This document shows, piece by piece, positions 18,920-50,175 of a DNA stretch of 64,000 nt (positions are counted from its first letter, which is position 1; every line of letters starts with the position of its first letter). A program made the translations under genes and the position numbers. The notes under the pieces are model-generated. The model was given only the letters and a program-made list of their open reading frames with translations. It ran no database searches and was not told the DNA's origin. This DNA is from Acidipila sp. (lineage in GTDB: Bacteria > Acidobacteriota > Terriglobia > Acidiferrales > UBA7541), in the NCBI GenBank assembly GCA_010365215.1, contig JAAFGT010000004.1:1-64000 (forward strand), read 5' to 3'.

Positions 18920-18927
18920 CTCTAACC

Positions 18928-29598: not shown

Positions 29599-29805
29599 TC
29601 AGCGCTTTAAACGCCGGTCCGCACGCTGGCCGAACGCGATCATGATCAACCCGAAGGCGAGCATCACCAAACCCCACCAGAGGTTGACGTTGATCCCCAG
29701 GGATTTTTGATAGATGGCCTTGTCGGCCATCAGTCCATAACCGACTAACAGGATACCGATGATGGTGAACAGCCCGCCGATCGGTAACCGTATATCCAGG
29801 CCCAT
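29599..29805 (-). CDS. Small two-helix membrane protein
   Basis: 68 residues with two hydrophobic helices (GGLFTIIGILLVGYGLMA and LWWGLVMLAFGLIMIAFG) and a basic C-terminus (RADRRLKR). It lies between the symporter (13 bp) and galK (31 bp) genes. It may be an accessory subunit of the symporter, as small proteins beside transporters often are; the function is unknown. Confidence 0.75.
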   Translation of the reverse strand: MGLDIRLPIGGLFTIIGILLVGYGLMADKAIYQKSLGINVNLWWGLVMLAFGLIMIAFGQRADRRLKR

Positions 29806-31761: not shown

Positions 31762-33768
31762 TTACTGGGTGATGGCCAGGGTTATAACGGAAACTGAATA
31801 CGGGGGCAACTCCACGACGAATCGCGAATTCGCTCTAACCGCGCTCCGCCGCGTAGAAACAGCTTCTGGAGATGCGAAGCTGTTCGCTGCCGTAAGAGAA
31901 TCAGCGGTGATTGTTTCCATTTCTGCTTCGGGACGGATGCCGGCGCCTGAGATCTGCACGGTAGTTTTCAGCGCGTGCTTTCCGTCCGTGTTGACGGCCT
32001 TGATGAAAATCTGTTTTCCATCCGCGGTGCGGCTCGCGGTGACATCCAGGGTAGGCAGTCCTTTGCCTTCGAGGCTGGTGTCAAATGCCGGGCCGTCGGC
32101 GCGGACGGCCAGGCTTTGCGTTCCCAGACGCCGGTTGTAGAGCTCGTTGACAAGGTAGATGGGCGTCACAAACAGCCCGTGCCGACTGGCTTGCACTACG
32201 CCGCCAGACCAGCCGTTCACCATATCCGAAACCGCGGTCATAGCCACGGCCGGACTGCGTTCAAAAACGTTCATCAGCCGTGCCGCATAAAGCGCGGACT
32301 CCATGGAGTGCTGCCGCGGCACCGGAAGCGACGTATTCCATTCGTTTATGCTGAGCTTGATGTCGCGGCCGGGAGTGAGTTCATGAATCAACTGCACCAC
32401 CTTATTATAAAAAGCCTCGTAATGGAGTGGGTGGGCCATTAGATTGCGCGGGTCATCTCCCATCTCCGCGGTGCCGTAGTAATGGTGAATGGCGAGATAG
32501 TCCAGATTGGTTCCGGCGATGCGAAGAACGGTGCGGTCCCAATCCAAGTCATTGTCGCCGACAGCGATCAGGCGTATGGAGGGATCAACAGCGCGCATCG
32601 CCGCGGCGTAGAGATTAAAATTCCGCGCGTAGGTCTGCGCGTCGCTGTGAGCGCGCACCCAGCTCCCCCAAATCTCGTTCCCAATTTCCCAATATTTTAC
32701 CTTGAACGGTTCGGGATGGCCGTTAGCCTTGCGCATGGCGCCGTATTTGGAGCTCGCGGGGCCGTTGGCATATTCCACCCAGGCTGCGGCCTCGGCGGAC
32801 GTGGCTCCGCGGCCTTCCACGTTCACGGTGAGTGACGGCTCCGCCCCGAGATTGCGGCAGAATTGAATGAATTCATCGGTGCCGAAATCGCTGGGCTCAT
32901 ACTCATTGGCCCAGGAGAGATTCACCCAGGTGAAACGTTGATCACGCGGCCCAATTCCCCACATCCAGTGATAATCCTGAGCCACATTTCCGCCCGGCCA
33001 GCGAACGAAGGCCGGATGCAGCGCTTTTATTTTTTGAAAGACATCGGCGCGGACACTGTCAACGGCGTCACCCGGGAGCAAAGAAACCTGGTCCACCCAC
33101 ACGCGTCCGTGTCCCGGGAACAGCACCACAAACTTGGCCAGCGGATCGGTCTTGGCAGGTGAAAGAGTGAATTCGTGTTTCGCCCAATCGCCTGCAATGT
33201 CGGATATGCGGGCCTGCGCGTAAGTGGCGCCGCCCGTTTGATCCGCCTCCAGCGCAACGGCTATCTCGCCGGAGTAATCGGCTGACTTTATCCAGAGATA
33301 ACCGTGGTAGGAAATACCTTGCCTTACTGGAATGCCCGCCTGACGAATGCCGCGCCGCTGGCCATCGTTGTAGGCCACATCCACGCGCAAGGAATGCTCC
33401 ACACGGTCAGCCTGAAAATCCCGAGCCGCAGGATAAAATACGGAATCGTCCCAGCGGAAATGTAGCGCTGGGTCGTCATTGCGATCGTCGGGCTCCCGCT
33501 CCCAATCGCGTGGCAAGCCAATCTGGTTGGGTGAGTCACTGAAGCTGCGGTCGCGGATCAGTTCGGCATACAGGCCACCCTTTACGCCTTCGAACATGAA
33601 TTCGTCAAACTGACCGTAAAGGAGTGGACTGATCTGCCCCTGTACTTTGCCGGCGTCGATGGAGATCGTCGCGGGAAGGGAAGCGTCCTGCGCCAGAACG
33701 GGCGGGCCGCAAAGCGCGACCACAAAAAAAAGCAGCTGGCACGCCGCAGTTCTTGGGCGCATGGTCAT
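31762..33768 (-). CDS. GH51-type alpha-L-arabinofuranosidase
   Basis: 668 residues, secreted (LLFFVVALCGPPVLAQ). It begins with the GH51 opening GQISPLLYGQFDEFMFEG, then a beta-sandwich insert (about 105-230), and a TIM barrel with RWPGGNVAQDYHW, acid/base Glu365 (WEIGNEIWG) and nucleophile Glu476 (LSINEWNT). The C-terminal beta-sandwich (about 560-668) is usual. The expected reaction is release of terminal L-arabinofuranose from arabinan or arabinogalactan. It lies 8 bp downstream of the GH2 gene. Confidence 0.92.
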   Translation of the reverse strand: MTMRPRTAACQLLFFVVALCGPPVLAQDASLPATISIDAGKVQGQISPLLYGQFDEFMFEGVKGGLYAELIRDRSFSDSPNQIGLPRDWEREPDDRNDDPALHFRWDDSVFYPAARDFQADRVEHSLRVDVAYNDGQRRGIRQAGIPVRQGISYHGYLWIKSADYSGEIAVALEADQTGGATYAQARISDIAGDWAKHEFTLSPAKTDPLAKFVVLFPGHGRVWVDQVSLLPGDAVDSVRADVFQKIKALHPAFVRWPGGNVAQDYHWMWGIGPRDQRFTWVNLSWANEYEPSDFGTDEFIQFCRNLGAEPSLTVNVEGRGATSAEAAAWVEYANGPASSKYGAMRKANGHPEPFKVKYWEIGNEIWGSWVRAHSDAQTYARNFNLYAAAMRAVDPSIRLIAVGDNDLDWDRTVLRIAGTNLDYLAIHHYYGTAEMGDDPRNLMAHPLHYEAFYNKVVQLIHELTPGRDIKLSINEWNTSLPVPRQHSMESALYAARLMNVFERSPAVAMTAVSDMVNGWSGGVVQASRHGLFVTPIYLVNELYNRRLGTQSLAVRADGPAFDTSLEGKGLPTLDVTASRTADGKQIFIKAVNTDGKHALKTTVQISGAGIRPEAEMETITADSLTAANSFASPEAVSTRRSAVRANSRFVVELPPYSVSVITLAITQ

Positions 33769-33775
33769 CGAGCGA

Positions 33776-36664
33776 TCACTCTTTCACCTTGTCGAGCACG
33801 ACGTTGAGCCGCGGCATGAAGCCCGGACTGGCCGCGTAGCGAAGAATTGAATCAAGCAACTGCGTGGCGTAGGGGTCTTTGCCATAAGCGTCAAACCGAA
33901 ACGTGGTCGCCAGGAGCTTGCCCTTCCCCGCGTTCATCTGCACGGCTAGCGCGGCATTTTGATTCAGCCAGCCGTAAAAAACTCCCGACAAAACGTCGTC
34001 ATAATCATGGGGGGCAACACCCTGAATGATGTAGTGAGGCACGACGCTAGCCGATTCGAGCCCTAGCAGCCGGCCGAACGCAACCGCATCGAACGGCGCC
34101 GCATTTGCGCGAACCCAGTTGAAGTTGGTGACCCAGTTGCCGTCGAGATCAGAGCCATCATGGGCAGCCACTTTGAGAGAGGTACCTGCCGGCAGCGCGT
34201 CAATAGAATCGATGAGAAGCACAACACGTCCGCCCTGGTTAATTTGAGCCTCGACTTGAGCGTCATAACGCGCGGCTAGCATTACGGTATGGGCGTCAGG
34301 GGTATCAGCAGTTCCAGTGGAATATCCGGCCGCGAGCAAGGACTGCCCCAGCTCTTTTAAGTGGCGGGCCGGATCGTGGAACTTCAACACACCGCGATTA
34401 ACCGTAGACCGGTTCGGAAAAACAAAATAATCGTAGTGATTTTCTGCGAGCAGGGCACCGTCCGGTCCGCGCACTTCAAGGTGCACTCGCTGGCGCTGAG
34501 GCTTCTCTACAGCGGCCGCCGGAAAACTGATGTGCTGCAACGCGGTGACATCCCCGCGCTGTATCGCGTGCTGGTACTGGTAGCGGCCACTCGCGCCAGA
34601 GTCCGTAAACCACGTGACCCACGCCCCGCGCAAATCATTTTCGCCATAATGCGAAAACTTAACGTCCAATTCGACGTTCTCGCCACTTTGAAAGTTATGA
34701 CGGGCAAATTGTCCCAGGACGGCATCCGCTTGCTGGATATGCGCCAATTCGGTGGCATATACCTTTGGCTGGCGCCACATATCCATCAGGCCATTGGCCT
34801 CCCAGTTGATGTCAGTGAATTCGGTGATGACGTAGCCCTGTATGGCGGAATGGCTGCGGATGTCCTCAATTTCATGTTTGAGAGAAAGGAATTGATGCCA
34901 CTGGCTCTCCTCCGCCAGTGAATCGAATGAATTGAAAATGTGGTCCAGGCGAAAGTCCTGGAAACGACCCAGCACGCCGGCGGGCCGCGTCACCTCACGC
35001 CCTTCGAAGTCGCGGCCATACCACCACGGCCATTCCTGGGGAAGTTTGGGCAGCCCCCAATTCCCGAACTCGGAAACAATCAGCGGTTCTCGACCGGTCG
35101 GCTTGGCGTCGCCGAACGGGCTGAAAATCCATTTAGGGCGCGACGCAAAGTCCGCCGTCCACTTGTCCCATTTATCAGAATTATCCGGAATCGAGTAATA
35201 CTGATGAAAATCCGCAAGATCGCTTTTGATGTGAAAATTCTCACAGCAGGCGCTGTTGTCATCGATGACGCGGCCGAGTGGCGCCGTAAGCTGCTTGGCG
35301 CGCTCGAATGCCGCACGCAGCCATGCGCGCTGATCCTGTTGCTTCAGGTCGGAGCCCCACGCTTCGTTAATGACGCTCTGGATCACGATGGAAGGATGGT
35401 TCCAGTCGCGATCGACCATCGCCGCGAAAATCTGTTCGCCGCGTTCCGCCGCCACCGGAGCGAAATGATGCGCATCGTTCCACGAGGGAATCTCATACCA
35501 CACCAGCATCCCTACCTCGTCCGCAGCCCGCAGATAGAGCGGGTCGGGAACCTTAATATGGCAGCGCAGCATATTCAGGCCGAGGCGTTTGCCTCTGCGC
35601 ATCATCTCGCGAACATACCGCTCTGACGGCGGAGTGTAGACACCTTCAGGATAGAAATCTTGATCCAGCGCCGCGCGCATATAAAACGGCTCGCCGTTCA
35701 GATAGAGCATGCCATTACGGGCTTCGAAACTGCGAAAACCGAACCGGTCGTAAACTGTTTCTCCCTCAGAACCAGCGAGAGCAATCTCCACCGAGTAAAG
35801 CACCGGATGGTCAGGACTCCACAGGCGCGGCGAATTGATATGTCCAGTGACCGTTTGCTCAGGGCCAGAGCCGACCTGTAGCGTCTGGTGAAAATCTGCA
35901 TGGCCACTCTCATCGCGCACGAAGACGTCCAAGGGGATGGCATGCGCCGCATTCCCCCGGCTTCCCGCTAATCGCACCTCGATTTTGAAATCGCCATTCA
36001 CCTGGGGAGTGACGTGCACTCGCTCGATGTAAACGCTGGGACGGAACTCGAGCGAAACCGGCTGCCAAATTCCTCCGGTCTGCACATACCAGTTCTGCTT
36101 GCCGTGAGGAATTTCGTTGTACATCCATTTCGGAAAGCGCGCGCGGTTTTCCGCCTCATTCATGGGGGGATCCACCACGCGAACCAGAACCTGATTCGCT
36201 CCCGGGCGAACGGCTTCTGTGACGTCGAAGCTGAAAGGCGTGTAACCGCCTTCGTGTTGTCCAACCGGCTTTCCGTTCACAAACACTTCACTGAAGTAAT
36301 CCACGGCCCCAAAATGCAACAGCGCTCTACGCGCTTGTGAAAACTGCGGCGCCACGAAACTCACTTTGTACCAGGCGACTCCCGCGTAATCGCGCAGATC
36401 GGGGAATTGAGCATTCCAGGAGAGACCCGGCTGGACGGGGCGCCAGCCGGCCGCGTCAACCGAATTAGCCGTGGTCAGGCTACCGGAGGGGTCGGTCAAG
36501 AACTGCCAAGAATCCAAGCGGGCGGTTTGGGCGCTGGCGCTGCTTGCGAGGAAAAGGAAGACTGCCATTCCGACGAAGCACCGCCCTCCGAGCCGTGGCA
36601 GGCCGTCACCGAAAATCATTCTGAACTTCAGCTTGAACTTCCTGTGAAATGTGATCGATTCCAT
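33776..36664 (-). CDS. GH2 glycoside hydrolase (beta-galactosidase/glucuronidase-like), secreted
   Basis: About 962 residues with a signal peptide (FVGMAVFLFLASSASAQ). The sugar-binding domain (AGVAWYKVSF, GAVDYFSEVFVNG) and immunoglobulin-like domain precede the barrel with acid/base Glu434 (SVINEAWGS) and nucleophile Glu532 (IVSEFGNWG). A C-terminal region of about 300 residues includes a glutamine-amidotransferase-like segment (GGRVVLLIDSIDAL). Within the galactose locus, beta-galactosidase activity is likely. ATG 36664 has AGG 6 nt upstream; a GTG at 36691 adds nine residues. Confidence 0.87.
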   Translation of the reverse strand: MESITFHRKFKLKFRMIFGDGLPRLGGRCFVGMAVFLFLASSASAQTARLDSWQFLTDPSGSLTTANSVDAAGWRPVQPGLSWNAQFPDLRDYAGVAWYKVSFVAPQFSQARRALLHFGAVDYFSEVFVNGKPVGQHEGGYTPFSFDVTEAVRPGANQVLVRVVDPPMNEAENRARFPKWMYNEIPHGKQNWYVQTGGIWQPVSLEFRPSVYIERVHVTPQVNGDFKIEVRLAGSRGNAAHAIPLDVFVRDESGHADFHQTLQVGSGPEQTVTGHINSPRLWSPDHPVLYSVEIALAGSEGETVYDRFGFRSFEARNGMLYLNGEPFYMRAALDQDFYPEGVYTPPSERYVREMMRRGKRLGLNMLRCHIKVPDPLYLRAADEVGMLVWYEIPSWNDAHHFAPVAAERGEQIFAAMVDRDWNHPSIVIQSVINEAWGSDLKQQDQRAWLRAAFERAKQLTAPLGRVIDDNSACCENFHIKSDLADFHQYYSIPDNSDKWDKWTADFASRPKWIFSPFGDAKPTGREPLIVSEFGNWGLPKLPQEWPWWYGRDFEGREVTRPAGVLGRFQDFRLDHIFNSFDSLAEESQWHQFLSLKHEIEDIRSHSAIQGYVITEFTDINWEANGLMDMWRQPKVYATELAHIQQADAVLGQFARHNFQSGENVELDVKFSHYGENDLRGAWVTWFTDSGASGRYQYQHAIQRGDVTALQHISFPAAAVEKPQRQRVHLEVRGPDGALLAENHYDYFVFPNRSTVNRGVLKFHDPARHLKELGQSLLAAGYSTGTADTPDAHTVMLAARYDAQVEAQINQGGRVVLLIDSIDALPAGTSLKVAAHDGSDLDGNWVTNFNWVRANAAPFDAVAFGRLLGLESASVVPHYIIQGVAPHDYDDVLSGVFYGWLNQNAALAVQMNAGKGKLLATTFRFDAYGKDPYATQLLDSILRYAASPGFMPRLNVVLDKVKE

Positions 36665-36706
36665 CTTTAACCTGAAAATTCTGAAACTCACCTATCCGGG
36701 CAAGAA

Positions 36707-37384
36707 TTAAGGCCGCGCCGGCTTGGTGGTGACCACACGCGTCGAGCTCCAGTGGTTCTCCGATGATCCGTAGCCATAAAGCATCACCCAAAAATCGTGG
36801 GGCAAATTCTTCACGGTCTTCTGGAGACCCGTCTGCCCGTTGAGCATAAAAAGAAAATCATCGCCGCGGCGCACAATTCCGATCGTGGGGTTGCGTATCT
36901 TGGTGGCCAGTTTACGATTATCCAGCCGTTCGCCCTGGCCATTCACTACGGCCCAGGCCTCAAACGTTCCTTCGCTGGTGTAGATCCATTCGACGCGGTT
37001 GCGCCCGGAATCGTCGAACAGGATCGTAAGATTGGCATCGCCGGGAGTTAAGCCACTACCGCCCGCCTCCGGCAGCGCGGCCCCGACTTTGGCAACGGTG
37101 GCTTCGACGATGAAATGGTCGCCAGTAAACTTTTGCTTGGAGCGCACACCCGAGCGCGAGCCACTAACGCTGCGCATTCGCAACTCCCCGCCTTCGACTT
37201 TGAATGTGCCGCCATTCGCGCCTTCGAAGCTGAAGCGCTCCCATTTCGAGGAGTCAAGCGAACTTCCCTCAAAAGCGGCATTCCACTCTTCGACCGCTGG
37301 ATTTGTTTGCGAAGATGCGCGCACGAGCGAAAACAGCAGGCAACAGCCCAGCGTCAGCGCACGCCAGAGTCTCTGTCTAACCAT
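36707..37384 (-). CDS. Secreted concanavalin/LamG-like domain protein
   Basis: 225 residues with a signal peptide (LWRALTLGCCLLFSLVRASSQ) followed by one jelly-roll-like domain: FEGSSLDSSKWERFSF, GGELRMRSV, SKQKFTGDHFIVEATV, IGIVRRGDDFLFMLNGQ. The pattern fits sugar-binding or DUF1349-like ConA folds. No catalytic signature such as the GH16 ExDxxE was seen. GGAGG 6 nt before ATG 37384 decides the start. It is likely a carbohydrate-binding accessory protein. Confidence 0.75.
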   Translation of the reverse strand: MVRQRLWRALTLGCCLLFSLVRASSQTNPAVEEWNAAFEGSSLDSSKWERFSFEGANGGTFKVEGGELRMRSVSGSRSGVRSKQKFTGDHFIVEATVAKVGAALPEAGGSGLTPGDANLTILFDDSGRNRVEWIYTSEGTFEAWAVVNGQGERLDNRKLATKIRNPTIGIVRRGDDFLFMLNGQTGLQKTVKNLPHDFWVMLYGYGSSENHWSSTRVVTTKPARP

Positions 37385-37404
37385 GAAAAACCTCCATTGC
37401 ATTA

Positions 37405-39051
37405 CTAATACCGCACCTCGGCCAGGCGACGCACGATCTCTCGCCGCTCGTTTTCTGACTGTTGTTTTTGCTCGCTGCTGAGTTGCTCGAATCTTGTGGC
37501 GGCCGCCTGCGCATCCTCACGGCGCTTGAGTCGCGTGTAGACCCGGCTCAACTGGTAGTACGCTTCCGCGACTTTTGCATCGGCTTTCACCACGCTCTCC
37601 AACTCACCGGCCGCGTCCTGCAGGCGGTTGGCTCGCAGGTAGAGTTTTCCTAAAGCCAGGCGTGCCTGCAGGAATCCTGGATCCAGTTCCAGTGCGCGCT
37701 TCAAGTGCTCTTGCGCTTGATCGATATTGGCTGGGGTGAGTTTTGTGAAAGACTCCGCAAGCAGATAGTGATTGACCGCGGAGGGCTCCTCAACGCCTAT
37801 CGCTTTCTGATAATACGCAATGGCGTCCGTCATTCTGCCTTCGTCGTCGGAGATCATCCCCAGGTATGCCAGCGCCGGCGACATTTTGGGATCGTGCTCC
37901 AAGGCGCGGGAAAAAGCGTCCGCTGCCAGGTTGTTTTTATTATCGGTGAATTGGGCCACTCCCAGTGCGAACCATAGCTTGGAGGAGCTTGGAAAATCAT
38001 CGAGAGCCTCGCGCAGACGAATCACTGCGGCTTGGGGGGCATTCGCACTGGTTAATAGCATCGCATAGCGAAAGCGCAACGCCTCGCTCTTGGGATCCAG
38101 CTGGATTGCCCGTCGCATGGCCGGGATGGCTTTATCGATTTGACCGCTCGACTCGTAGATCTCAGCCAGCGCCGCGAACAGAGGGGCGCTTTCCATTCCG
38201 CGGGCCAGTGCGGATTCCAGCGTGCGACCGGCAGCCTCATCGTCCTTGTTTTCGTGATAAGCGCGGGCCAGCAGGAGGATTTCCTCTAGGTTAGAAAGAT
38301 CGGCCTTCACCACCGCATCCAATTCGACGGCAGCTTCCTTGGCGAGGCCCGCTTCGAGCAAGGCAGCTCCCAACTCGGCGCGGGCGGCCGGCGCAGCGAC
38401 AGATTCCGGCGCAGTGTCCAATCGGGCGGAGTAATCGGGGAATTCCGCTGCGGCAGCGGCAGGCTCATGAAGACGCAAGGCAATCACGACCAGAGCACGG
38501 GCAGTTTCCGCGTCAGGCGCCAGCGAGCGCGCACGCTCGAATAACTGCCGTGCCGCCCGCAAGTTTTCGGGACTTCCTGTTGCATAACGGATTTGCGCCA
38601 AGTTCACTAGCGCACCGGGCTGTTTTGGGTCGAGACGCAGAGAGGTTTCAAACTGGCCCGCTGCCTCCTGTTTGCGTCGCAGCTTCAGCAGGATTGCGCC
38701 GTAATTGTTGCGAGCTTCCGGAGAGTCAGGCGCGCCCGATACCGCTGCCGCAAACTGGCGTTTGGCTTCTTCCAGCTCGCCGGCTTGGTCGGCCAGAATC
38801 CCCAGATAGGTCCGGGCGGCGAGATTCTTTGGATCGGCAACGAGCGCGCGCCGGAAAAAGGTCTTTGCTGCCAGAGAATCGCCGCGATCCATCGCCGCGA
38901 CACCGCCGGCGATCAAGCCAGCAGCAGCTGGCTTGTTGGTAGGGAGCGACTTGCGCTGGCCCGCAAGTATCGGCGTCAGCGCTCCGCAAACACCGCCCAG
39001 AGCGAGCAGCAGGACAAGAGGCATAGCCGGAAGTCTCGAAAACTGCTGCAT
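37405..39051 (-). CDS. TPR-repeat protein, exported
   Basis: About 548 residues. A signal-like N-terminus (MPLVLLLALGGVCGALTPILAG) precedes TPR units across most of the length (AKTFFRRALVADPKNLAARTYLGILADQAGELEEA, AIPAMRRAIQLDPKSEALRFRYA, AQEHLKRALELDPGFLQARLALGKLYLRANRL). It ends with a Gln/Glu-rich helix. It would work in the periplasm as a scaffold, perhaps for the neighbouring TonB receptor, 74 bp upstream. ATG 39051 is chosen over a TTG at 39066; no strong ribosome site is seen. Confidence 0.85.
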   Translation of the reverse strand: MQQFSRLPAMPLVLLLALGGVCGALTPILAGQRKSLPTNKPAAAGLIAGGVAAMDRGDSLAAKTFFRRALVADPKNLAARTYLGILADQAGELEEAKRQFAAAVSGAPDSPEARNNYGAILLKLRRKQEAAGQFETSLRLDPKQPGALVNLAQIRYATGSPENLRAARQLFERARSLAPDAETARALVVIALRLHEPAAAAAEFPDYSARLDTAPESVAAPAARAELGAALLEAGLAKEAAVELDAVVKADLSNLEEILLLARAYHENKDDEAAGRTLESALARGMESAPLFAALAEIYESSGQIDKAIPAMRRAIQLDPKSEALRFRYAMLLTSANAPQAAVIRLREALDDFPSSSKLWFALGVAQFTDNKNNLAADAFSRALEHDPKMSPALAYLGMISDDEGRMTDAIAYYQKAIGVEEPSAVNHYLLAESFTKLTPANIDQAQEHLKRALELDPGFLQARLALGKLYLRANRLQDAAGELESVVKADAKVAEAYYQLSRVYTRLKRREDAQAAATRFEQLSSEQKQQSENERREIVRRLAEVRY

Positions 39052-39125
39052 GGCAGACGAAACCAATGCACGGTCGGAGGGCGGCGGATGAATTTTCCCG
39101 CCGCTGCGCGCAGTGCCAGACTCGA

Positions 39126-42100
39126 TCAGAAAATCAATTTTAACCCGAACTGGATGACGCGTGGATCGTATACGTAAGGCACATTTACCACGCTCGATTT
39201 TCCGAAGTTTACGTTGTCCTTCAGGTCGATGTTGGGCTGGAAATAGCGGTGACGATTGAACGGATTAAACAGCTCGGTGCGAAACTCGAGCGTCAATCTT
39301 TCGGTCAACGAAGTCTTTTTCAGCACGCTGAAGTTCTCGCTGTAGAACGGCAAGGCTCGTGCGCCGGAAAGGACGGGAGGTGCATTCCCGAAAAACACCT
39401 TGGGATTGCTGTAATAAGCGGCATATCCGGGATCCCCGGGCTGGAAGGGTTGATTGCTGAACGCCGGTGGCGGGGCAAAAGCCGCGGGATTAACGAGTTG
39501 GAAAATCGTTCCCGAGGGGCTGTTCTTTGTCAGGATCGGCTGCCCGGTTAGATTCGGTCGGATGCTGCCGTCATATCCGGCCAGATTCAGAAAATCGGTA
39601 TAGGGCCGATCCGAATCCAGGACCAGAGTCGGCAATCCTGCCTGATAGCGGTGGATGCCGTTAAGTTGCCAGCCTCCGACGAACCAGTTGAGGACGCCAG
39701 AGTGGGAAAGGAATGCCTTGCCCCTTCCGAAAGGCAGTTCGTAAAGATAACTGAACACCGCCACGTGGGGAGAATTGTTAGGCGAAACGCTCCGCAGCGA
39801 GCGGGTATCGAACGGGTTCTGGACGACGTTTTCGATCGGCGAGCGTCCCAGCAAATCTTCGGACGCATCCGTAATCAGCTTAGAGAACGTGTAGGAGAAG
39901 CCGAACTGGAATCCTTGAGAAAAGTGCCGGTCCAGCTTTACCTGTAGGGCGTTATAGAGGCTGCGTCCTTGGCTCTCCAGTTGTTGATTGATCCGGCCGT
40001 ATTGCGGGAATGGCCGAAGCGCCTGGGCAACGCTGCCAGTAAAACCCGGGTATACGGCGGCGGGACTGCTGGGCAAAGTAACGCCTACGCTGTTCGCGTA
40101 TGCGACATGCGTAGGATTGGCCAGCGCAGCCGCTAGAGGTTCATTCAATATTACGAATCCTAGCTTGAGATCATTCAGCGGCAGTGCGTTAAGTCTCTGG
40201 AAATTGGACCGCAGGCGCGTGCCGTGGCTTCCGACGTAACCGACGGTGAGCGCAAAATTGCCGGGGATCTGCAGTTGGTAATCCAGGCTGTACTGCACCG
40301 TGCGCCCGAGTTTGAAATTCGGATTGAAGTAATCGACGTCGCCACCGAGAAACTGGCCATTGGGGTCAGGTACGGGCGCAGCAGGGTAGGTGGACAAGAA
40401 GACAGTAGACTGCCGCCCTTGCGGTTTAACCAGAGGATTGTCGGGCGCCCGCGTGGTGTTGTAACCCTCCAGTCCGGAGGTGATATCGCTGGCAAGAAGC
40501 GGCGCATAGTAAAGCCCGATTCCTCCGCGGACGACGCTCTTATTGTTGATCGAGTAAGCGAGTCCGAGGCGTGGTCCAAAGTCGGTGTAGTCCGGCTTGA
40601 CCAGTCCACGCCGAGACGCTTTCAGCCCGCCTTGACCAGCCGCACCGACGAGCGCGCCGAGCCGGGTTCCAGCGATCTGCGGATCCGGGTTGGGTACCGT
40701 GGGATCGAACCCACGAATGTAATTGTGAGATTCCGTGCGCGGGTAGGGGATTTCATAGCGGATGCCGACGTTCAGGGTCAACCGGGGCGTGACCTTAATA
40801 TCGTCGTTCGCATAAAATGCAGGCGCGAAGTAACGCCAGGCTGGCTGAACCGAGTGTATGTTCACGAATGAGAACTCGGTGGCGCCGGTAATCAGGCTGG
40901 CAATGGGCCATCCCATATTTCCTTGTCCAGCGGCATCGGACGCCGTTTGATCGTTGCGGAAATTGAACGTGCCTCCTGGATCGATGAATTGCGTCACATT
41001 GAGCTGCTGCCATTTGAAGTCGCCACCAAATTTAAACGTGTGCCGGCCTTTCACCCACGTCGCGCCGTCGCTGATCTCCACGGTATTATCGGGTAGGCGG
41101 TCGGTAAAGAACGTAGATCCGATGTTCTGACCGGCGCGAGGATCCGCGGACGTTTCGATAGGACCGTAGCCAGGAAAGCCAACGCGAGGAAATGCGGCGT
41201 TTTGCGTGGCGTTTGCCGGGAACCCCAGTTCGACGGAGGGAATGTGGCCAATTCCGGTGTTCATATTGGCTACGGCAGTGCGGCTCCACGCCAGATTCAG
41301 ATGATTCAGTAGCGTCGAAGAAATCGTGTAGTCGTATTGTGCGCGGGCAAAATGCGAATTGAACGTCTGATGCCAGACGTCCTGAGCGATGAAAGGCAGG
41401 GGGAATCTGGGGAATCCGCCCTTGAACGCGTCCTGGGCACGGTAGGTGTAGCTGCCGGACAGATGCTGTTTCTCCGTTATGACCTGATCGACCTTGGCCA
41501 CATAACTGTTCATCGTGGTGGGCGTCACCGTGGAGGCTCGGTAGTTGTGAAAGACTCCCGGGCCGGTGGGCATAGGGAACCGATTCAGTATGGCCAGCCC
41601 CGCGGGATCGATCACGGAGCGGCCCGTTATCGGATTGACGTACTGGTCCAGCCGATTGCCCGGAATCGGATTGCGTGTAGCCGGGGGCATGGTAGGGTCG
41701 AAAATCTGCCGTGGGCCGGTGTCAATACAGGTACCGTTATTAAACTCGTAGCAGAAACTGGTGACATAAGGATCCGTAAGCAGCTCGGAGAAATCTCCGG
41801 TATGCATCTTGGCGGTGGGAACCGTTACGATGACATTTTCACCCTGCTTGAAGCGGTATCCTTCGTAATTGAAGAAGAAAAAGGTCCGATTGGCGCCGTT
41901 GTATACCTTGGGAATAGTCACCGGGCCGCCGACGTTGAAACCAAAATCGTTCTCTCTGTCCAAGTTTCGCGGCAAATTGTTGGCATTATTGATGTAGCTG
42001 TTGGCGTTCAGCGCGGTATTGCGCAATAGATCATACGCTTCGCCGTGATAGCCATTACCGCCCGACTTAATCGTAAAGTTGACCACGCCACCGGAAGAAT

Positions 42101-42824
42101 TGCCATATTCCGCCGAATAACTGCTGGTGCTCACAGTGAATTCCTGAAACGCGTCGGGCCCCGGCGCTACCTCAGAGAAGAACGTGCCGTTCTGCGCGCG
42201 CTGCGTTCCAGCGCCGTCAATAAGGATGCTCGTGCCTAGAGCTTGTCCGCCATTCACGCGAAAATTCGAAGCATCAGTGCCGCGGCTGCCGTCGGCAGCC
42301 GTCCCCGAAGTCACGCTGCTATCCAGAAAGATGAATGAGAGGGGTGTGCGCCCGCCAAATTCGGCGCTAACTTGCAGGGGCAGTTCCCGAACCTGTTTTT
42401 CAGTGACGTTGGTCTGCTGGACCGCGCTTTCTGTCTGAAGAATCGGCGCGTCGGCAGTCACCGTCACCTGCTCGCTGGCAGCGCCCAAAGTCAGCGCGAA
42501 ATCCACACGCCTGGTGACCTGCACAGGAAGCTGGATGGTCTGCGAGGTGACTTTAAATCCAGCAGCTTCCACGGAAACTTTGTAAGGCGCGGCAGGCAAC
42601 TCCGGCAAGGTGTAGCTGCCTTCGTTGGTAGTCGTGGCTTCATGCGACGCTTCCGTATTGGTATTGACAGCGGTTACTTTCGCATTGGCCACCGAAGCGC
42701 CGGAAGGATCGGTCACCGTGCCGGTGATCGTGCCGCGATCGCTCTGCGCACTCACCAGCAGCGCGCTGGCGCAGATCGCCATCAGCAGCAGGCACCCCAT
42801 TCTGAAAAGTTGGCGCGTGGTCAT
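39126..42824 (-). CDS. TonB-dependent receptor, Oar-like, full length
   Basis: 1232 residues, outer membrane. A signal peptide (CLLLMAICASALLVSAQ) is followed by a carboxypeptidase-regulatory-like domain (GTITGTVTDPSGASVANAKV, about 30-110), the plug (ETESAVQQTNVTEKQVRELPL, NFRVNGGQALGTSILIDGAGTQ, AEYGNSSGGVVNFTIKSGGNGYHG) and a large beta-barrel closing with DPRVIQFGLKLIF and its terminal aromatic. No SusD partner is nearby, as usual in Acidobacteriota. GAGG precedes ATG. It heads the minus-strand arabinogalactan-type operon and is divergent from a LacI gene with a shared operator. Confidence 0.95.
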   Translation of the reverse strand: MTTRQLFRMGCLLLMAICASALLVSAQSDRGTITGTVTDPSGASVANAKVTAVNTNTEASHEATTTNEGSYTLPELPAAPYKVSVEAAGFKVTSQTIQLPVQVTRRVDFALTLGAASEQVTVTADAPILQTESAVQQTNVTEKQVRELPLQVSAEFGGRTPLSFIFLDSSVTSGTAADGSRGTDASNFRVNGGQALGTSILIDGAGTQRAQNGTFFSEVAPGPDAFQEFTVSTSSYSAEYGNSSGGVVNFTIKSGGNGYHGEAYDLLRNTALNANSYINNANNLPRNLDRENDFGFNVGGPVTIPKVYNGANRTFFFFNYEGYRFKQGENVIVTVPTAKMHTGDFSELLTDPYVTSFCYEFNNGTCIDTGPRQIFDPTMPPATRNPIPGNRLDQYVNPITGRSVIDPAGLAILNRFPMPTGPGVFHNYRASTVTPTTMNSYVAKVDQVITEKQHLSGSYTYRAQDAFKGGFPRFPLPFIAQDVWHQTFNSHFARAQYDYTISSTLLNHLNLAWSRTAVANMNTGIGHIPSVELGFPANATQNAAFPRVGFPGYGPIETSADPRAGQNIGSTFFTDRLPDNTVEISDGATWVKGRHTFKFGGDFKWQQLNVTQFIDPGGTFNFRNDQTASDAAGQGNMGWPIASLITGATEFSFVNIHSVQPAWRYFAPAFYANDDIKVTPRLTLNVGIRYEIPYPRTESHNYIRGFDPTVPNPDPQIAGTRLGALVGAAGQGGLKASRRGLVKPDYTDFGPRLGLAYSINNKSVVRGGIGLYYAPLLASDITSGLEGYNTTRAPDNPLVKPQGRQSTVFLSTYPAAPVPDPNGQFLGGDVDYFNPNFKLGRTVQYSLDYQLQIPGNFALTVGYVGSHGTRLRSNFQRLNALPLNDLKLGFVILNEPLAAALANPTHVAYANSVGVTLPSSPAAVYPGFTGSVAQALRPFPQYGRINQQLESQGRSLYNALQVKLDRHFSQGFQFGFSYTFSKLITDASEDLLGRSPIENVVQNPFDTRSLRSVSPNNSPHVAVFSYLYELPFGRGKAFLSHSGVLNWFVGGWQLNGIHRYQAGLPTLVLDSDRPYTDFLNLAGYDGSIRPNLTGQPILTKNSPSGTIFQLVNPAAFAPPPAFSNQPFQPGDPGYAAYYSNPKVFFGNAPPVLSGARALPFYSENFSVLKKTSLTERLTLEFRTELFNPFNRHRYFQPNIDLKDNVNFGKSSVVNVPYVYDPRVIQFGLKLIF

Positions 42825-42919: not shown

Positions 42920-42937
42920 AATGTAATCGATTACATT
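42920..42937. promoter_or_regulatory. Perfect 18-bp LacI-type operator
   Basis: AATGTAATCGATTACATT is fully palindromic with the central CG typical of LacI/GalR operators. It lies 96 bp from the TonB receptor start and about 138 bp from the LacI start, in their shared divergent promoter. Its core TGTAAnCGnTTACA recurs at 45901. Confidence 0.75.
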
Positions 42938-43074
42938 CCAACTGCAGGAGAACGTACTCTTGGCCATCTAGCATTGTCAAGCAAATTTGTGATAAAACCT
43001 CATCATGGCGCGACTCCCAGCCCAGTTTGCGGCACGTTGCGGCCCCCCCTTCGGCCCAGGGCCCCGACGAGCTA

Positions 43075-44094
43075 ATGAATATTAAGCAAGTGGCCAAGAA
43101 GGCCCGAGTGTCCACGGCGACGGTCTCACGAATCATCAATGATTCATCGCTAGTGAGCCCAGAGACGGCGCGGCGCGTCTGGCGGACGATCCGCCAGCTC
43201 AATTATCATCCGGATAGCCAGGCCCGCAGCCTTGTCTCCGGGCGCAGCCGCATCCTCGGGCTTATTATTTCAGACATCACCAACCCGTTCTTTCCGGAGT
43301 TAGTAAAAGGGTTCGAAAATCTGGCCCTGCAGAACCATTACGAAGTCATACTCAACAATACAAACTACGATCCCGCTCGAATGGCCACTTGCGTCCGCCG
43401 CCTGCTGGAACGCAGAGCGGAAGGCGTGGCCATCATGACATCCGAAATGGATCCTGAGTTGACCGACGAGTTGGCCAAGCGCGGCATTCCGATCGTCTTC
43501 CTCGATGTAGGAAGCGTCCGCAACCGCATCAGTAATATTCGCGTCGATTATGCGCAGGGCATTCGCGAAGCGGTGGACCATCTAATCACCGGCGGTCATC
43601 GCCGCATCGGATTTATCAGCGGTCCGATGAGTCTGAAATCCGCGTGCACACGGAAATCCGCATTTCTAAAGTGCTGGAGGGCGTACGGCTTTGCGGAGGA
43701 CAACGGGCTAATCGTGGAGGGCAATCACAAGATCGACGGCGGCGAATCGGCCATGTCCCGCCTTCTACAATTGAAGCCACGCCCCACGGCAATTCTGGCT
43801 TCCAACGACCTCAGTGCCATAGGAGCTCTCGGGGCGATCCGTCTCGCGGGCCTGCGCATTCCCGAGGATATTTCCGTAATCGGCTTCGACGATATTGATT
43901 TTGGCCAGTTCACTCACCCACCTCTGGCGACCATCCGGCTCTCGCGAACGGAACTGGGAGGCAAGGCGTTCAATGCCCTGTACCGAATTCTTCACGGCGA
44001 TTCAAAAAAAGGCGAGGAGTATAACGTCGAGACCCATTTTGTAGCTCGCGAGTCGACCGGCCCGGCTCCCCAGCCCGGTCGGCAAACACAATGA
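43075..44094 (+). CDS. LacI-family transcriptional regulator of the carbohydrate locus
   Basis: 339 residues. An N-terminal HTH (IKQVAKKARVSTATVSRIIN) is followed by the hinge (YHPDSQARSLVSGRS) and a sugar-sensor domain (ILGLIISDITNPFFPELVKG, ITGGHRRIGFISGP, SVIGFDDIDFGQFTHPPLATIR). The ATG at 43075 places the HTH at residue 2 as in LacI proteins; an upstream TTG at 43027 would add 16 residues without a ribosome site. It is divergent from the TonB-led operon and followed by a convergent CRTAC1 gene. It probably binds the sites at 42920 and 45901; the inducer would be a galactose- or arabinose-derived sugar (inference). Confidence 0.95.
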   Translation: MNIKQVAKKARVSTATVSRIINDSSLVSPETARRVWRTIRQLNYHPDSQARSLVSGRSRILGLIISDITNPFFPELVKGFENLALQNHYEVILNNTNYDPARMATCVRRLLERRAEGVAIMTSEMDPELTDELAKRGIPIVFLDVGSVRNRISNIRVDYAQGIREAVDHLITGGHRRIGFISGPMSLKSACTRKSAFLKCWRAYGFAEDNGLIVEGNHKIDGGESAMSRLLQLKPRPTAILASNDLSAIGALGAIRLAGLRIPEDISVIGFDDIDFGQFTHPPLATIRLSRTELGGKAFNALYRILHGDSKKGEEYNVETHFVARESTGPAPQPGRQTQ

Positions 44095-44112
44095 CGCTTG
44101 TGACGGCCTGTC

Positions 44113-45873
44113 TTAGGGCTCGCTGGCCGCGGTTTTCGGCTCGGTAATTGTCAGAATCTGGTTGGCAGTGACGTTTTCGATGCGCTGCGCTACGCCGCTC
44201 GGCCACCTGATTTCCAAGTATTTTGCCGATTTCTCGCTGGCCAGGCCGAAGTGAACCCGGCGGTCGCTTGCGGAAAGATAACTCCCTGCAGTGCTCGCCG
44301 TTGCGTATTGTTCCTTCCCCGAGGCGGATACCAGCTTGATTGCGGCACCGATGCCGTCACGGTTGCTTTTCCGGCCGACCAGGCGAATGAGCAGCCAGTT
44401 GTTCGCGGTGCCGCCCTCATTTTTCAGCACGTAGGCCGGACCGTTGTTGGTAGTAACCACCGCGTCCAGGCTTCCATCGTTGTTGATATCCCCGATCGCC
44501 AGGCCCCGGGCAGCCCATGGCCGCTGGAATACTGCGCCAGACTGGGCGGAGACATCTACAAACTGCTTACCGGTGTTGCGCAATAGCAGGAGGGGCTGGA
44601 GGTAACGAAGGTTGGGGAAAGTAAGCTGAATTGTATCGAGAACGTGGCCCTGTACGATGAATAGATCTTTCCAACCGTCGTTGTCATAATCCATGAACTT
44701 AACCCCCCAACCGGAGTAAGGTCGGGAGATCGCACCCACGCCGGAATTTCGCGACTCGTACGTGAACGTGCCGTCTCCTGAGTTGTGATAAATCGCATAT
44801 TGCTGACCGGAAAGATTTGTCGTGACGATGTCCGGCCAGCCGTCGTTATCGTAATCGGCGAAATCCACTCCCATGCCGGCGTAAGTTTGTCCGTTGTCAT
44901 CCAACCCGGTGCCTGCGAGCAGCGCGATATCTTCGAAAGCTCCATTTCCCTTGTTGTGGTAAAGCGATTGGCGGACTGAATCATTGGCCACCGCAACGTC
45001 GATGTGGCCATCCCGGTCAAAGTCAGCGATTGCTATACCTAGAGCTTTGGCGCTCCCGGCAGCCATGCCTGCCGTCTTGGACACTTCGGTAAACCGTCCG
45101 CCGCCCTCGTTCTTGAACACCACCAGTGACACAGGGCCGAATACGTCCGGGTGGCAATACGCCCGGTACCCCGGACGGTGCTCACCGCAGTAGATGTTCT
45201 TGTCAAATGCCCAGTCCAAATAGCGCGCCACCACCAGGTTCAGCAGTCCATCATTATCGAGATCGACGAAGGCAGCGCTAGTGGACCAGCCCGCGCCAGC
45301 TACGCCGGCGGCGTCGCTGACCTCCGTGAAGGTGCAATTTCCATTGTTGTGATACAGGCGATTGCGCGGGTAGCCGGTTACGTACAGGTCTTCGTTGCCA
45401 TCGTTGTCGTAATCGCCCGCGGCCACTCCCATCCCGTACTCGATACCCGCGAGTCCTCTCTTTTCTGTAATGTCTTCAAACGTGCCGTCTGATTTCTGGT
45501 GGTAGAGACGGTTGGAATAACGCGGGCCGTCCTTGCGAGGGATGGCGCCCCTGGGCATGGGATCCTCGATGCGGGCGCCATTCACGAAAAATATATCCAG
45601 GCGTCCGTCGTTGTCGCAATCGAATAGCGCCACGCCTGCCCCCATTGTCTCCAGCAGATATTTCTCGGTAGTTGCCGAGGACTCATGCTTGAAGTGAATT
45701 CCTAACTCTTGCGTGACGTCCACAAACTTGACTGCTGCCGCGGAGCCGCCTCGCACGCCGGGCAAAGAGGCTGGCAAAGCAAGAATTTGCGGCAATGCTA
45801 GAGACGTCCAGAAAACTAACGGCCACACGAGCCGCAACCTACGCACGGCGATTTTAGCGGGGTATCGGTTCAT
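44113..45873 (-). CDS. CRTAC1 family protein (FG-GAP/VCBS, ASPIC/UnbV)
   Basis: 586 residues. A signal peptide (LVFWTSLALPQILALPASLPG) precedes FG-GAP blades with calcium-type loops (DCDNDGRLDIF, DYDNDGNEDLY, DFDRDGHIDVA, DINNDGSLDAV) and a C-terminal ASPIC/UnbV domain ([33 protein letters not shown]). Its promoter faces the second GH43 gene and the operator at 45901 lies 28 bp upstream, so it may be sugar-regulated. This links a CRTAC1 protein of unknown function with polysaccharide breakdown. Confidence 0.92.
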   Translation of the reverse strand: MNRYPAKIAVRRLRLVWPLVFWTSLALPQILALPASLPGVRGGSAAAVKFVDVTQELGIHFKHESSATTEKYLLETMGAGVALFDCDNDGRLDIFFVNGARIEDPMPRGAIPRKDGPRYSNRLYHQKSDGTFEDITEKRGLAGIEYGMGVAAGDYDNDGNEDLYVTGYPRNRLYHNNGNCTFTEVSDAAGVAGAGWSTSAAFVDLDNDGLLNLVVARYLDWAFDKNIYCGEHRPGYRAYCHPDVFGPVSLVVFKNEGGGRFTEVSKTAGMAAGSAKALGIAIADFDRDGHIDVAVANDSVRQSLYHNKGNGAFEDIALLAGTGLDDNGQTYAGMGVDFADYDNDGWPDIVTTNLSGQQYAIYHNSGDGTFTYESRNSGVGAISRPYSGWGVKFMDYDNDGWKDLFIVQGHVLDTIQLTFPNLRYLQPLLLLRNTGKQFVDVSAQSGAVFQRPWAARGLAIGDINNDGSLDAVVTTNNGPAYVLKNEGGTANNWLLIRLVGRKSNRDGIGAAIKLVSASGKEQYATASTAGSYLSASDRRVHFGLASEKSAKYLEIRWPSGVAQRIENVTANQILTITEPKTAASEP

Positions 45874-45900
45874 TTCTCGTTCATAAGTTGTTCGCTCGAC

Positions 45901-45914
45901 TGTAACCGCTTACA
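45901..45914. promoter_or_regulatory. LacI-type operator, near-perfect
   Basis: TGTAACCGCTTACA has a central CG and one mismatched pair between its arms. It fits the core TGTAAnCGnTTACA of the site at 42920. It lies between the divergent CRTAC1 and GH43 genes, 28 bp from the former start, and could control both. Confidence 0.65.
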
Positions 45915-45951
45915 ATATTCCATGCCCTTCGTTTTTAGGATATTCCCTTCT

Positions 45952-47814
45952 ATGGAAACGAAAAAGATCATAGGTTTTAGAATGGTTCATTGGCGGTCAC
46001 TTGCCAGGCTTCTCTTCGCGACCGCCACACTCGTTTTGAGCAGCTGCGGCACGGGCAGTTACGTGCCGGCTCCTCCGCCGCCTCCTCCACCATCTGCAAA
46101 CACCTTCACCAATCCTCTGATGATTCAGATTCCCATAGGCGGCACGGTGCAGGATTGCCCAGACCCCTCCATCATCCGGGGACAACAACCCAATGACACA
46201 TACTGGTATATCTACTGCACCACCGATCCCTTGAACGACTCCGACAAAGATGCCCTGGGAAATTTCAACTTTCATCTGATCACGATGCACAAATCCTCAG
46301 ACCTTGTGCATTGGACCTATGTGGGCGACGTATTCAGCTTGCGCCCAGGCTGGGTGGCACCCAGTGCCGGACTGTGGGCTCCGGCAATCAAGTTTTTCAA
46401 CAACAAATACTTTCTGTACTACGCGGCTTCCGACACCAGCCTCCCGGGCGGAGGCGCGGCCATCGGAGTCGCTACGAGTATGAGCCCCACCGGACCATGG
46501 ATTGATAGCGGGGCGCCCGTGGTAATGCCTGAGGATAACTCCTGTTGTCCGGGCACGCGGCGGGCGGCTATCGATCCGGAAGTCATACAGGCTAGCGGCA
46601 AGAACTACATTTATTTCGGCAGTTTCAACGGCGGAATTTCTGCTCGCACGCTTTCCGCGGATGGTCTGACGTCCGATCCTGCCAGCGAAAAGCCTATCAC
46701 CATCGATAATCGCTACGAAGCCGCTAATATTGTGCTCCACGGCGGATTCTACTATCTCTTCGTTTCCGCGTCGAACTGCTGCAATGGGCCGCTCACCGGG
46801 TACGCTGTATTCGCAGGCCGGTCGCCAAATCCCCTGGGACCATTCCTCGATAGCCAGAACATCTCATTGCTTGATAGCCGCGTGGGTGGCACTCCCGTGC
46901 TGCGCATGAACGGCAACCGCTGGGTTGGGCCGGGCCACAATGCAGCATTTCAGGACCTGGCCGGGCAGGATTGGTTTGTGTACCACGCCGTCGATCGTGC
47001 TGCGCCTTTTTTTGCAGGCGCGGTGGGATTAACCAAGCGCCCAGGAATGCTGGACGCACTCGACTGGGTGAATGGATGGCCGGTGGTACGCGGCGGATTC
47101 GGACCTTCCGAGCTGCCACAACCCGCCCCGGCGGCGCAACCGGGGGATAAGAATCTGTACACCCCCACATTTGCAGCGCCGGACCAGCCGGGTCCGTTGA
47201 TGAGCTCTTTTTCCGATGAGTTCGACAGCTCCACGCTCAGCCCGCAGTGGACCTGGGTGCGCGCGCCAGCCGCGGGAACTTTTGGCCTTACCGGCCAGAG
47301 TTTTCGTTTTGATACGCAGAACGCTGATCTTTTTGTGGACAGCAATAACGCCTCAGTGCTTATCGAAGACCCGCCAAGCGGCGACTACGTCGTCGAGACT
47401 CGCGTAAACTTGAATGTTCCGGCTACTGGATGCTGCCAGAATTTTGTGCAGGCGGGCTTAGTGGTCTACGGAGACGACGACAATTACATCAAGCTCGTCA
47501 ATGTATCGATTTTCGATACCCGGCAAACTGAATTCGCCAAAGAACTTGCTCCGGTGCCCAGCGGGTACCCGCGCTATGGAAGCACGCTGGCAGGGCCGCC
47601 CGCGGATTGGACTTGGCTGCGCATCGTAAAGCGCACGGCCGCCGTTGGAGAGACCTACACCGCTTATAGCAGCAACGATGGACTGACCTGGGTGCGCGGC
47701 GGTACCTGGACGCACAATCTGGGATCGAGCGCGCGCATTGGTCTGGTTTCCATGGGCGGGCCAGGGTTCACTGCGCAGTTTGATTACCTCCATGTGAGCG
47801 GCTTGGCGCCGTAA
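45952..47814 (+). CDS. GH43 lipoprotein, arabinanase/arabinofuranosidase-like
   Basis: About 620 residues. A lipoprotein-type signal (LLFATATLVLSSCG, Cys32) and a polyproline linker precede a GH43 propeller with base Asp71 (DCPDPSII), Asp208 (AAIDPEVI) and acid Glu256 (NRYEAANIV). A C-terminal ConA-like domain (about 420-620; SFSDEFDSSTLSPQWTWVR, GDDDNYIKLVN) follows, as in endo-arabinanase-type enzymes. It is likely anchored at the cell surface or periplasm. ATG 45952 leaves room for the operator at 45901; ATGs at 45922 and 45982 are alternatives. Confidence 0.88.
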   Translation: METKKIIGFRMVHWRSLARLLFATATLVLSSCGTGSYVPAPPPPPPPSANTFTNPLMIQIPIGGTVQDCPDPSIIRGQQPNDTYWYIYCTTDPLNDSDKDALGNFNFHLITMHKSSDLVHWTYVGDVFSLRPGWVAPSAGLWAPAIKFFNNKYFLYYAASDTSLPGGGAAIGVATSMSPTGPWIDSGAPVVMPEDNSCCPGTRRAAIDPEVIQASGKNYIYFGSFNGGISARTLSADGLTSDPASEKPITIDNRYEAANIVLHGGFYYLFVSASNCCNGPLTGYAVFAGRSPNPLGPFLDSQNISLLDSRVGGTPVLRMNGNRWVGPGHNAAFQDLAGQDWFVYHAVDRAAPFFAGAVGLTKRPGMLDALDWVNGWPVVRGGFGPSELPQPAPAAQPGDKNLYTPTFAAPDQPGPLMSSFSDEFDSSTLSPQWTWVRAPAAGTFGLTGQSFRFDTQNADLFVDSNNASVLIEDPPSGDYVVETRVNLNVPATGCCQNFVQAGLVVYGDDDNYIKLVNVSIFDTRQTEFAKELAPVPSGYPRYGSTLAGPPADWTWLRIVKRTAAVGETYTAYSSNDGLTWVRGGTWTHNLGSSARIGLVSMGGPGFTAQFDYLHVSGLAP

Positions 47815-47877: not shown

Positions 47878-49713
47878 TCAGCGATGCCTGTCCTCGACGA
47901 CGCCTTTACCCTCTTCTACGGTAAAGATCCGGTTCAGTCCAGGCACGAGAACAACCTCGTCTTTACCACTCGGCCAACGAATGACCAGTTTCTCCACGCG
48001 CGCCGCCTTGCCCAACCCGAAATGCAAACGGAGGTCGTTGCTCGAGCAATAACTCCCGCCGCTGATGACGTCGGCGCGCTGAGTCATTCCGTTGGCGGTG
48101 AGATAGGCCTTAGCGCCGATGCCGTCGCGCGGACTCTTGCTCCCGCCCACCAGTTTTAATCCTATCCAGTTATTTTCACGGTCGACCACGTTTCGCAGAA
48201 GAGTAAGCGGGCCATCAATGTTATTCAGCACGACGTCGATCTTTCCGTCGTTGAACAGGTCACCGAAAGCCGCACCCCTCGCGGAAATCACCGCGGCGAG
48301 GCCGCTGCCGGTCGCCGCCGGAACCGTCTCGAACCGCTTTCCCTGAAGATTGCGAAATAACAGGGGACGCTGGCGGTAGGTTATGCCCCACTCGTTTTGA
48401 TCTACCCCGGGGTACACGTGGCCATTTGCAGCAAAGAGGTCCTTCCAGCCATCATTATCGAAATCCAGGAACCCAGTGCCCCAACCGAGAAATGGAATTG
48501 TAATTGCGCCTATACCGGCTTCGAATGTGACGTCGTCAAAGTTGGCATCGCCTTCATTTCGGTAGAGTGTGAAGTAATCGTCCGAGAAATTGGTGACATA
48601 GAGGGACAGGTGACCATCGTTTCGATAATCACCGACGGCGAGCCCCATCGAAGCTTGTTCGCGGCCGTCTCCGTTCAGCGCGAAGCCGGAGGCTAAACTA
48701 TCGTCCTCGAACGTTCCGGCTCCCTTGTTTATAAACAGGTAGTTAGGCGTGGAATCATTGGCTACGATTAAGTCCAATAGCCCATCGTCGTTGACGTCAG
48801 CGAACGCAGTGCCGAACCCATAGTAGCCTTTCTGGTTGGCTACCCCGGCCTTCTCGCTCACATCCGTGAACGTGCCATCCCCGTTGTTATGGAACAGATA
48901 ATTCCGCTCGCCTGGCAATCCCCGCGGCCCGCACATGGTCGGCTTTCCACGATAACTGCAGTTGTCAAATCGCCCGCCTGCCGTGCCGGGTGCGGGGGGA
49001 TTGTCCACATCGAATTTCACGTAGCCGGTGACGTAGAGGTCCAGGCGCCCATCGCCGTCGAAATCACCGAACGTTGCGCCGGTCGACCACCCGCCCAGTG
49101 CGACCCCGGCTTTCTCGGCCACGTCATTGAACGTGCCATCGTGGTTGTTGTGGTAGAGGCGATTCTTCCCGTAATTCGTAACGTAGATGTCCGGCCAGCC
49201 ATCATTATCGTAGTCGCCGACGGCAACGCCGAAGCCCCACCTCTCGTTACCGAGCCCAGCCGCAGCCGTAACATCCGTGAACGTGCCATTGTGGTTGTTG
49301 CGAAAAAGCGCCGCCCGCGGAGGCTTCTGTTTTCCACGCAGCGCCTCGAACGTGGATCCATTCACCAGATAAATATCAGGCCAACCGTCGTTGTCGAAGT
49401 CGAGGATAGCGACCCCTGAACCCGGAGCCTCCAGGATGAATTTTTTCTCCGGCGTTCCGGAAACGTGTTGAAAGCTTTCAAGTCCGGAACTTTTCGTTGC
49501 ATCGACGAAAACCACCGGCGCGCCATCGACAAATCCGCCCGCGGTTATGGGGCGTTTCTTATCATCCATCACAGGTGCGTAGGGCCCACCAGTCGACGCT
49601 CCACCCATGGGACTCGCGGTGGTCTGTTTAGGTTTTTCCTGGGGCGGGCTGGCCTGGGTGAAGGGCAAATATAGCGTGAGCTGAACGAACCAGCAGAGTA
49701 TCCACAAACGCAT
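47878..49713 (-). CDS. CRTAC1 family protein (FG-GAP/VCBS, ASPIC/UnbV)
   Basis: About 611 residues. A signal peptide (LWILCWFVQLTLYLPFTQAS) and a low-complexity linker precede FG-GAP blades ([57 protein letters not shown]) and an ASPIC/UnbV domain (SKSPRDGIGAKAYLTA, LVIRWPSGKDEVVLV). Start ATG 49713 is set by the signal peptide; ATG 49782 has a better AGG spacing. It converges on the GH43 gene and diverges from the polysaccharide-export operon. It is the fourth member of this family in the window. Confidence 0.9.
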   Translation of the reverse strand: MRLWILCWFVQLTLYLPFTQASPPQEKPKQTTASPMGGASTGGPYAPVMDDKKRPITAGGFVDGAPVVFVDATKSSGLESFQHVSGTPEKKFILEAPGSGVAILDFDNDGWPDIYLVNGSTFEALRGKQKPPRAALFRNNHNGTFTDVTAAAGLGNERWGFGVAVGDYDNDGWPDIYVTNYGKNRLYHNNHDGTFNDVAEKAGVALGGWSTGATFGDFDGDGRLDLYVTGYVKFDVDNPPAPGTAGGRFDNCSYRGKPTMCGPRGLPGERNYLFHNNGDGTFTDVSEKAGVANQKGYYGFGTAFADVNDDGLLDLIVANDSTPNYLFINKGAGTFEDDSLASGFALNGDGREQASMGLAVGDYRNDGHLSLYVTNFSDDYFTLYRNEGDANFDDVTFEAGIGAITIPFLGWGTGFLDFDNDGWKDLFAANGHVYPGVDQNEWGITYRQRPLLFRNLQGKRFETVPAATGSGLAAVISARGAAFGDLFNDGKIDVVLNNIDGPLTLLRNVVDRENNWIGLKLVGGSKSPRDGIGAKAYLTANGMTQRADVISGGSYCSSNDLRLHFGLGKAARVEKLVIRWPSGKDEVVLVPGLNRIFTVEEGKGVVEDRHR

Positions 49714-50175
49714 CGTAGTCGCGTGAGGGGGTTTCACTTCCCCTGCAATGCTGCAGGCCGTTTGTAGGGATCTAAAGCTCATCGAAAACCTGTACTTTAG
49801 CACGCGCCGATTTCTGAGAGGAGAGTAAGGCCAGGGAGTTAGCTGGCAAAGGCGGGCTGGTGACCGACGGGAGGTCTGGAATTTGCGTTGACGTTGCCTT
49901 GTTTTCGCGAATGCGGAGACTGTAGTGGTCGTCGCAAACACCCATTGCTTCCATGCGCAATCCAAGGGAAGGCTGGAGAACTGTCTGCGCACTAAGCGCG
50001 ACGCTTCGGGCGATCAAGTGGGCGCGAGTCCCGCATCTTGACTTTTCTAGGTCGCAGTGCAAGACTCCGCGAGTTCCCGGCCAATCTCAGGGCCACAGGT
50101 AACGGACTCGAGTCCGGATCCCGTGTGACTCCTTTCGGACCAACACCGGACTTGCTTGAGCATCCCGGAGTTCCC
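49714..50175. other. 462-bp divergent intergenic region before the export operon
   Basis: No gene is supported here; the frame open from 50038 lacks any domain before the ATG at 50176. A weak promoter-like pair TTGACT (50038) and AAGACT (50061), 17 bp apart, points toward the export operon. No riboswitch or operator was recognised. Confidence 0.4.

Follow-up and report, generated by a model that had tools for sequence, protein, structure and literature searches.

A LacI-family protein encoded in the 64,000-nucleotide stretch of Acidipila sp. DNA analysed here (contig JAAFGT010000004.1, positions 1 to 64,000; hereafter the window) is very probably a local, sugar-responsive repressor. Judging from the sequence, it would bind two palindromic operators and control a TonB-receptor-led operon, a CRTAC1-like gene, a GH43 gene and probably its own gene. 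The operators and the features closest to them are the following.

39126–42824, minus strand: TonB-dependent-type outer-membrane receptor of 1232 aa with a CarboxypepD_reg domain, encoded by the operon's first gene
42920–42937, no strand assigned: operator 1, AATGTAATCGATTACATT, a perfect 18-bp palindrome, with its 14-mer part at 42922–42935
42976–42981, minus strand: TTGACA, probable -35 element of the promoter of the TonB-led operon, 46 bp ahead of the core of operator 1
43075–44094, plus strand: LacI-family regulator, 339 aa, recognition helix VSTATVSR
44113–45873, minus strand: CRTAC1-like protein with FG-GAP repeats and an ASPIC/UnbV domain, divergent from the GH43 gene at operator 2
45901–45914, no strand assigned: operator 2, TGTAACCGCTTACA
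45952–47814, plus strand: lipoprotein-like GH43 enzyme, most similar to endo-arabinanases; the start codon may be at 45922, 45952 or 45982

The two sequences sharing TGTAAnCGnTTACA, which a sequence-only reading had placed at 42920 and 45901, were both found there. Operator 1 is situated between the divergent TonB (minus strand, start 42824) and LacI genes (plus strand, starting at ATG 43075 and not at the mechanical ORF start 43027), its 14-mer being about 97 bp from the former start and 139 bp from the latter. Operator 2 is located between the CRTAC1 gene (minus strand, start 45873) and the GH43 gene (plus strand, start 45952 or 45982), which are also divergent; it is 27 bp from the CRTAC1 start and about 37 bp from position 45952, where GH43 probably starts. 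These gene starts bear out the proposal that the sites lie in divergent promoters flanking the LacI gene. As to the layout of the flanks, the divergent regions stand, but the CRTAC1 gene runs convergently towards the LacI gene and only its 5' end is at operator 2. Both operators have a central CG and the half-site TGTAA.

The whole host genome (4,118,028 bp) contains two exact matches of TGTAAnCGnTTACA, at window positions 42922 and 45901, and no match of the reversed control pattern. Since about 0.10 matches are expected genome-wide from base composition, the excess is approximately twenty-fold: both sites are far above chance, and exact copies are confined to the two divergent promoters that flank the LacI gene. 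Frequent occurrence of the motif at random sites, named by the sequence-only reading as the case against a local regulon, was thus not observed. When up to two mismatches were allowed, 59 sites were found genome-wide versus 83 for the control; among the matches listed, the two exact ones were followed directly by two-mismatch sites, with no one-mismatch copy. Because they are fewer than in the control, the two-mismatch sites are background and not further operators, and those at 22531 and 36650 in the window, together with the others in the genome, were rejected as such. A third genomic copy of the 12-bp core GTAAnCGnTTAC (G000:C20:49217) was rejected too, being inside an open reading frame and devoid of the outer T...A pair. 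That both exact matches are chance palindromes without function is hardly credible. The background level of the two-mismatch sites would agree with this explanation, but the exact matches are clustered and about twenty-fold over expectation, and the comparative enrichment, residue-22 co-variation and conserved promoter spacing described below would be left unexplained.

Homologues of the window LacI protein are common in Acidobacteriota. In 37 LacI loci of the same family, GTAAnCGnTTAC occurs 20 times versus 0–5 times for eleven permuted half-sites, and in 42 loci from named genomes 13 times versus 0–2, although the loci share ancestry and are not independent samples. In the relatives these sites are mostly intergenic and precede TonB, arabinofuranosidase, symporter (SSF) and lacI genes. 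One genome (G012, locus L039) repeats the window layout with an exact 14-mer on each side of lacI. The locus of the closest homologue (L036 in G019; 64% identical) has two sites: a perfect one precedes an operon whose last genes are GH127 and lacI, and one with a single mismatch lies about 50 bp ahead of the TonB start of a set of TonB-TPR-CRTAC genes. Directly behind the exact operator of this locus, before GH127 and lacI, a 990-aa protein without a Pfam or NCBIfam match is encoded (L036:12120-15092); it may be a glycoside hydrolase not recognised as such. No exact core is present in the DNA covered for roughly half of the homologue loci, in particular for most of the Acidobacteriaceae with Ile17, so the operator of these loci either has drifted or is situated beyond that DNA. 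Most of the distant homologues have no exact 14-mer nearby; only the 12-bp core is general, whereas the outer T...A pair is not a general feature of the homologue group.

When the promoters were aligned on the operator, TTGAC(A) preceded the operator core by 42–47 bp in nine cases, namely in the window and at eight sites in relatives, two of the loci behind these eight being near-identical. The same alignment revealed no -35 box towards lacI, CRTAC1 or GH43, only on the TonB side of operator 1, and a consensus promoter scan at both operators gave nothing useful. With the -35 box 46 bp before it, operator 1 would be just downstream of the transcription start on the TonB side, so that the bound repressor would block RNA polymerase at the start of transcription.

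The operator base contacted by the recognition helix provides another comparison. An arginine of this helix contacts G at operator position 6, and regulators lacking the arginine have T there (PMC2329647; PMC2978694). By E. coli LacI numbering, residues 17, 18 and 22 of the window protein are T, A and R. In the T17/R22 group of LacI proteins, none of the 256 half-site palindromes is more strongly enriched than GTAAnCGnTTAC, which ranks first (25 sites observed, including the window's own two, versus 0.42 expected). In the T17/N22 group, the best palindrome is TTAAnCGnTTAA (5 observed in 7 loci versus 0.04 expected), situated 138–145 bp before lacI, and the window operator 1 is at 139 bp. The change of operator between R22 and N22 proteins agrees with the arginine-guanine(-6) rule; since the N22 proteins form one clade, this co-variation counts as one evolutionary event. 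This switch of operator between natural Arg22 and Asn22 proteins independently confirms the LacI recognition code. In the His22 group, the GTAAnCGnTTAC core is retained; several His22 homologues (L056, L058, L063, L091, L094) have CGTAAnCGnTTACG sites 84–94 bp before TonB genes, a third flavour of the operator. Two genomes, G012 and G019, each hold Arg22, His22 and Asn22 versions. It is about as likely as not that the window belongs to a set of paralogous LacI regulators spread across Acidobacteriota. Each member would be attached to a separate TonB-receptor/TPR/CRTAC/hydrolase locus, and substitutions at residue 22 (Arg, His, Asn), together with operator changes, would insulate neighbouring sugar regulons within one genome.

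The window protein possesses the N-terminal LacI helix-turn-helix domain (PF00356, 55.5 bits versus a cut-off of 27) and the C-terminal periplasmic-binding-protein-like sugar domain (PF00532 and PF13377), and matches PurR and CcpA structure chains over nearly its full length. As in the LacI/GalR family, a leucine is read in its hinge helix (ARSLVSG) and both operators have a central CG. Arg22 is found together with G at operator base 6, as seen from TVSR in the helix, the TGTAA half-site and the co-variation in relatives. The scores against the NCBIfam equivalogs GalR (160.2, cut-off 557) and GalS (174.3, cut-off 555) place the protein outside both; it may work like E. coli GalR, though by score it is not GalR. 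The protein ends at 339 aa, presumably without a tetramerisation tail of the E. coli LacI type, none being evident. DNA looping between the two sites, which are 2,979 bp apart, is therefore not favoured.

The operators could be real LacI-family sites bound mainly by another regulator, e.g., one of the genome's other two LacI proteins. The motif is a generic LacI/GalR/CcpA-type palindrome, to which similar proteins could bind, and one of the two further LacI genes is itself in the window (1965-3110, helix TVSI, without Arg22). However, these proteins read TVSI and SVSL at the recognition helix, with I or L in place of Arg22, which goes with T and not G at operator base 6 (PMC2329647). Their genes adjoin no copy of the motif, while the only two copies in the genome flank the gene at 43075–44094. 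Binding mainly by another regulator is thus very improbable, and the neighbouring LacI protein is the best candidate by exclusion, as the other two lack Arg22.

Downstream of the TonB receptor gene, the minus strand carries a further ten genes.

37405–39066, minus strand: TPR-repeat protein
36707–37402, minus strand: 231-aa protein without a Pfam or NCBIfam match
33776–36691, minus strand: GH2 glycoside hydrolase, galactosidase-like
31762–33768, minus strand: alpha-L-arabinofuranosidase with an Alpha-L-AF_C domain
29819–31630, minus strand: sodium:solute symporter, SSF family
29599–29805, minus strand: small membrane protein, 68 aa, read from the sequence, filling the gap between symporter and galK
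28404–29567, minus strand: galactokinase (galK)
25855–28407, minus strand: GH43 enzyme with a carbohydrate-binding domain
24863–25846, minus strand: UDP-glucose 4-epimerase (galE)
23785–24882, minus strand: galactose-1-phosphate uridylyltransferase (galT), last gene of the run

This run of 11 genes, which extends from 42824 to 23785, is nearly gapless and, by strand and spacing alone, is predicted to form one operon. The TonB-led operon had been assigned to operator 1 before, and this assignment is supported; the operon itself is larger than described, as it includes galK, galE and galT. The presence of these Leloir genes with galactosidase-like and arabinan-type enzymes suggests arabinogalactan, or the arabinan/galactan side chains of pectin, as the substrate. 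A galactose mutarotase (galM-like) gene at 22583-23728 is convergent with the end of the operon and has no operator copy.

Operator 1 could alone be functional, in autoregulation and in control of the TonB operon. Operator 2 would then have matched by chance, and the regulon would not extend to the CRTAC1 and GH43 genes. Operator 2 is less symmetric than operator 1, and few relatives show a second site beyond the LacI gene. On the other hand, operator 2 is placed in a short divergent promoter 3 kb from operator 1, when about 0.1 matches are expected genome-wide; its GH43 gene suits the pathway, and in relatives arabinofuranosidase genes are preceded by such sites. We consider a regulon restricted to operator 1 improbable. 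Four CRTAC1-type proteins, one of them with TPR repeats, are encoded in the window (17204-22416, 44113-45873, 47878-49992). In many relatives, homologues of these CRTAC1-type proteins are again encoded next to LacI and TonB genes, which suggests a role in polysaccharide use.

The single regulon of the TonB operon, LacI, CRTAC1 and GH43 genes anticipated by the sequence-only reading is supported by the enrichment in homologue loci, the promoter placement, the co-variation of residue 22 with base 6 and the -35 spacing; the uniqueness and placement of the sites, the comparative enrichment and the match to the recognition code are established by computation. According to the proposed mechanism, the LacI protein (43075–44094) would bind operators 1 and 2. 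Bound to operator 1, it would repress the 11-gene TonB-led operon and probably also lacI itself in the divergent direction; bound to operator 2, it would repress the divergent CRTAC1 and GH43 genes. The inducer freeing LacI from DNA would be a sugar released from plant polysaccharide of the arabinogalactan type, with galactose, arabinose or a short oligosaccharide as the likeliest candidates.

In the gal regulon of E. coli, the LacI/GalR-family repressors GalR and GalS control the galactose (Leloir) genes through TGTAAnC-type half-sites. The window system resembles it in the repressor family, the half-site type and the Leloir genes controlled; in contrast to the gal regulon, the operon that holds the Leloir genes of the window also encodes a TonB receptor and polysaccharide hydrolases. 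An outer-membrane TonB receptor, hydrolases and a transporter under local control also resemble the SusC/SusD-type loci of Bacteroidota; unlike in those loci, no SusD-type protein was found among the scanned window genes. Polysaccharide utilisation loci of Bacteroidota are usually controlled by hybrid two-component or ECF-sigma regulators, whereas the window locus would be controlled by a LacI protein.

Local regulons of the LacI family typically have even palindromes with a central CG, most of them 30–140 bp upstream of a start codon, and autoregulation is the case for over three quarters of the local regulators (PMC4052901). The window fits this RegPrecise survey closely, the lacI side of operator 1 (139 bp) being at the edge of the range. 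Regulators of the GanR/BgaR type are LacI-family regulators of galactoside utilisation (PMC4052901, Table 1), and the window protein may resemble them in this control. The main text of the survey does not mention Acidobacteria (PMC4052901), and no description of a LacI regulon of Acidobacteria was found in open-licence papers. The predicted regulon is a local, probably autoregulated one of the LacI/GalR type, a new member of a kind of regulation already known.

For Acidobacteriota, which are abundant soil bacteria, it offers an operator and a regulon that can be tested, at a TonB-receptor-led polysaccharide locus in which no SusD is evident. The regulon would also link CRTAC1/ASPIC-UnbV proteins, which are poorly understood in bacteria, to the use of plant polysaccharides.
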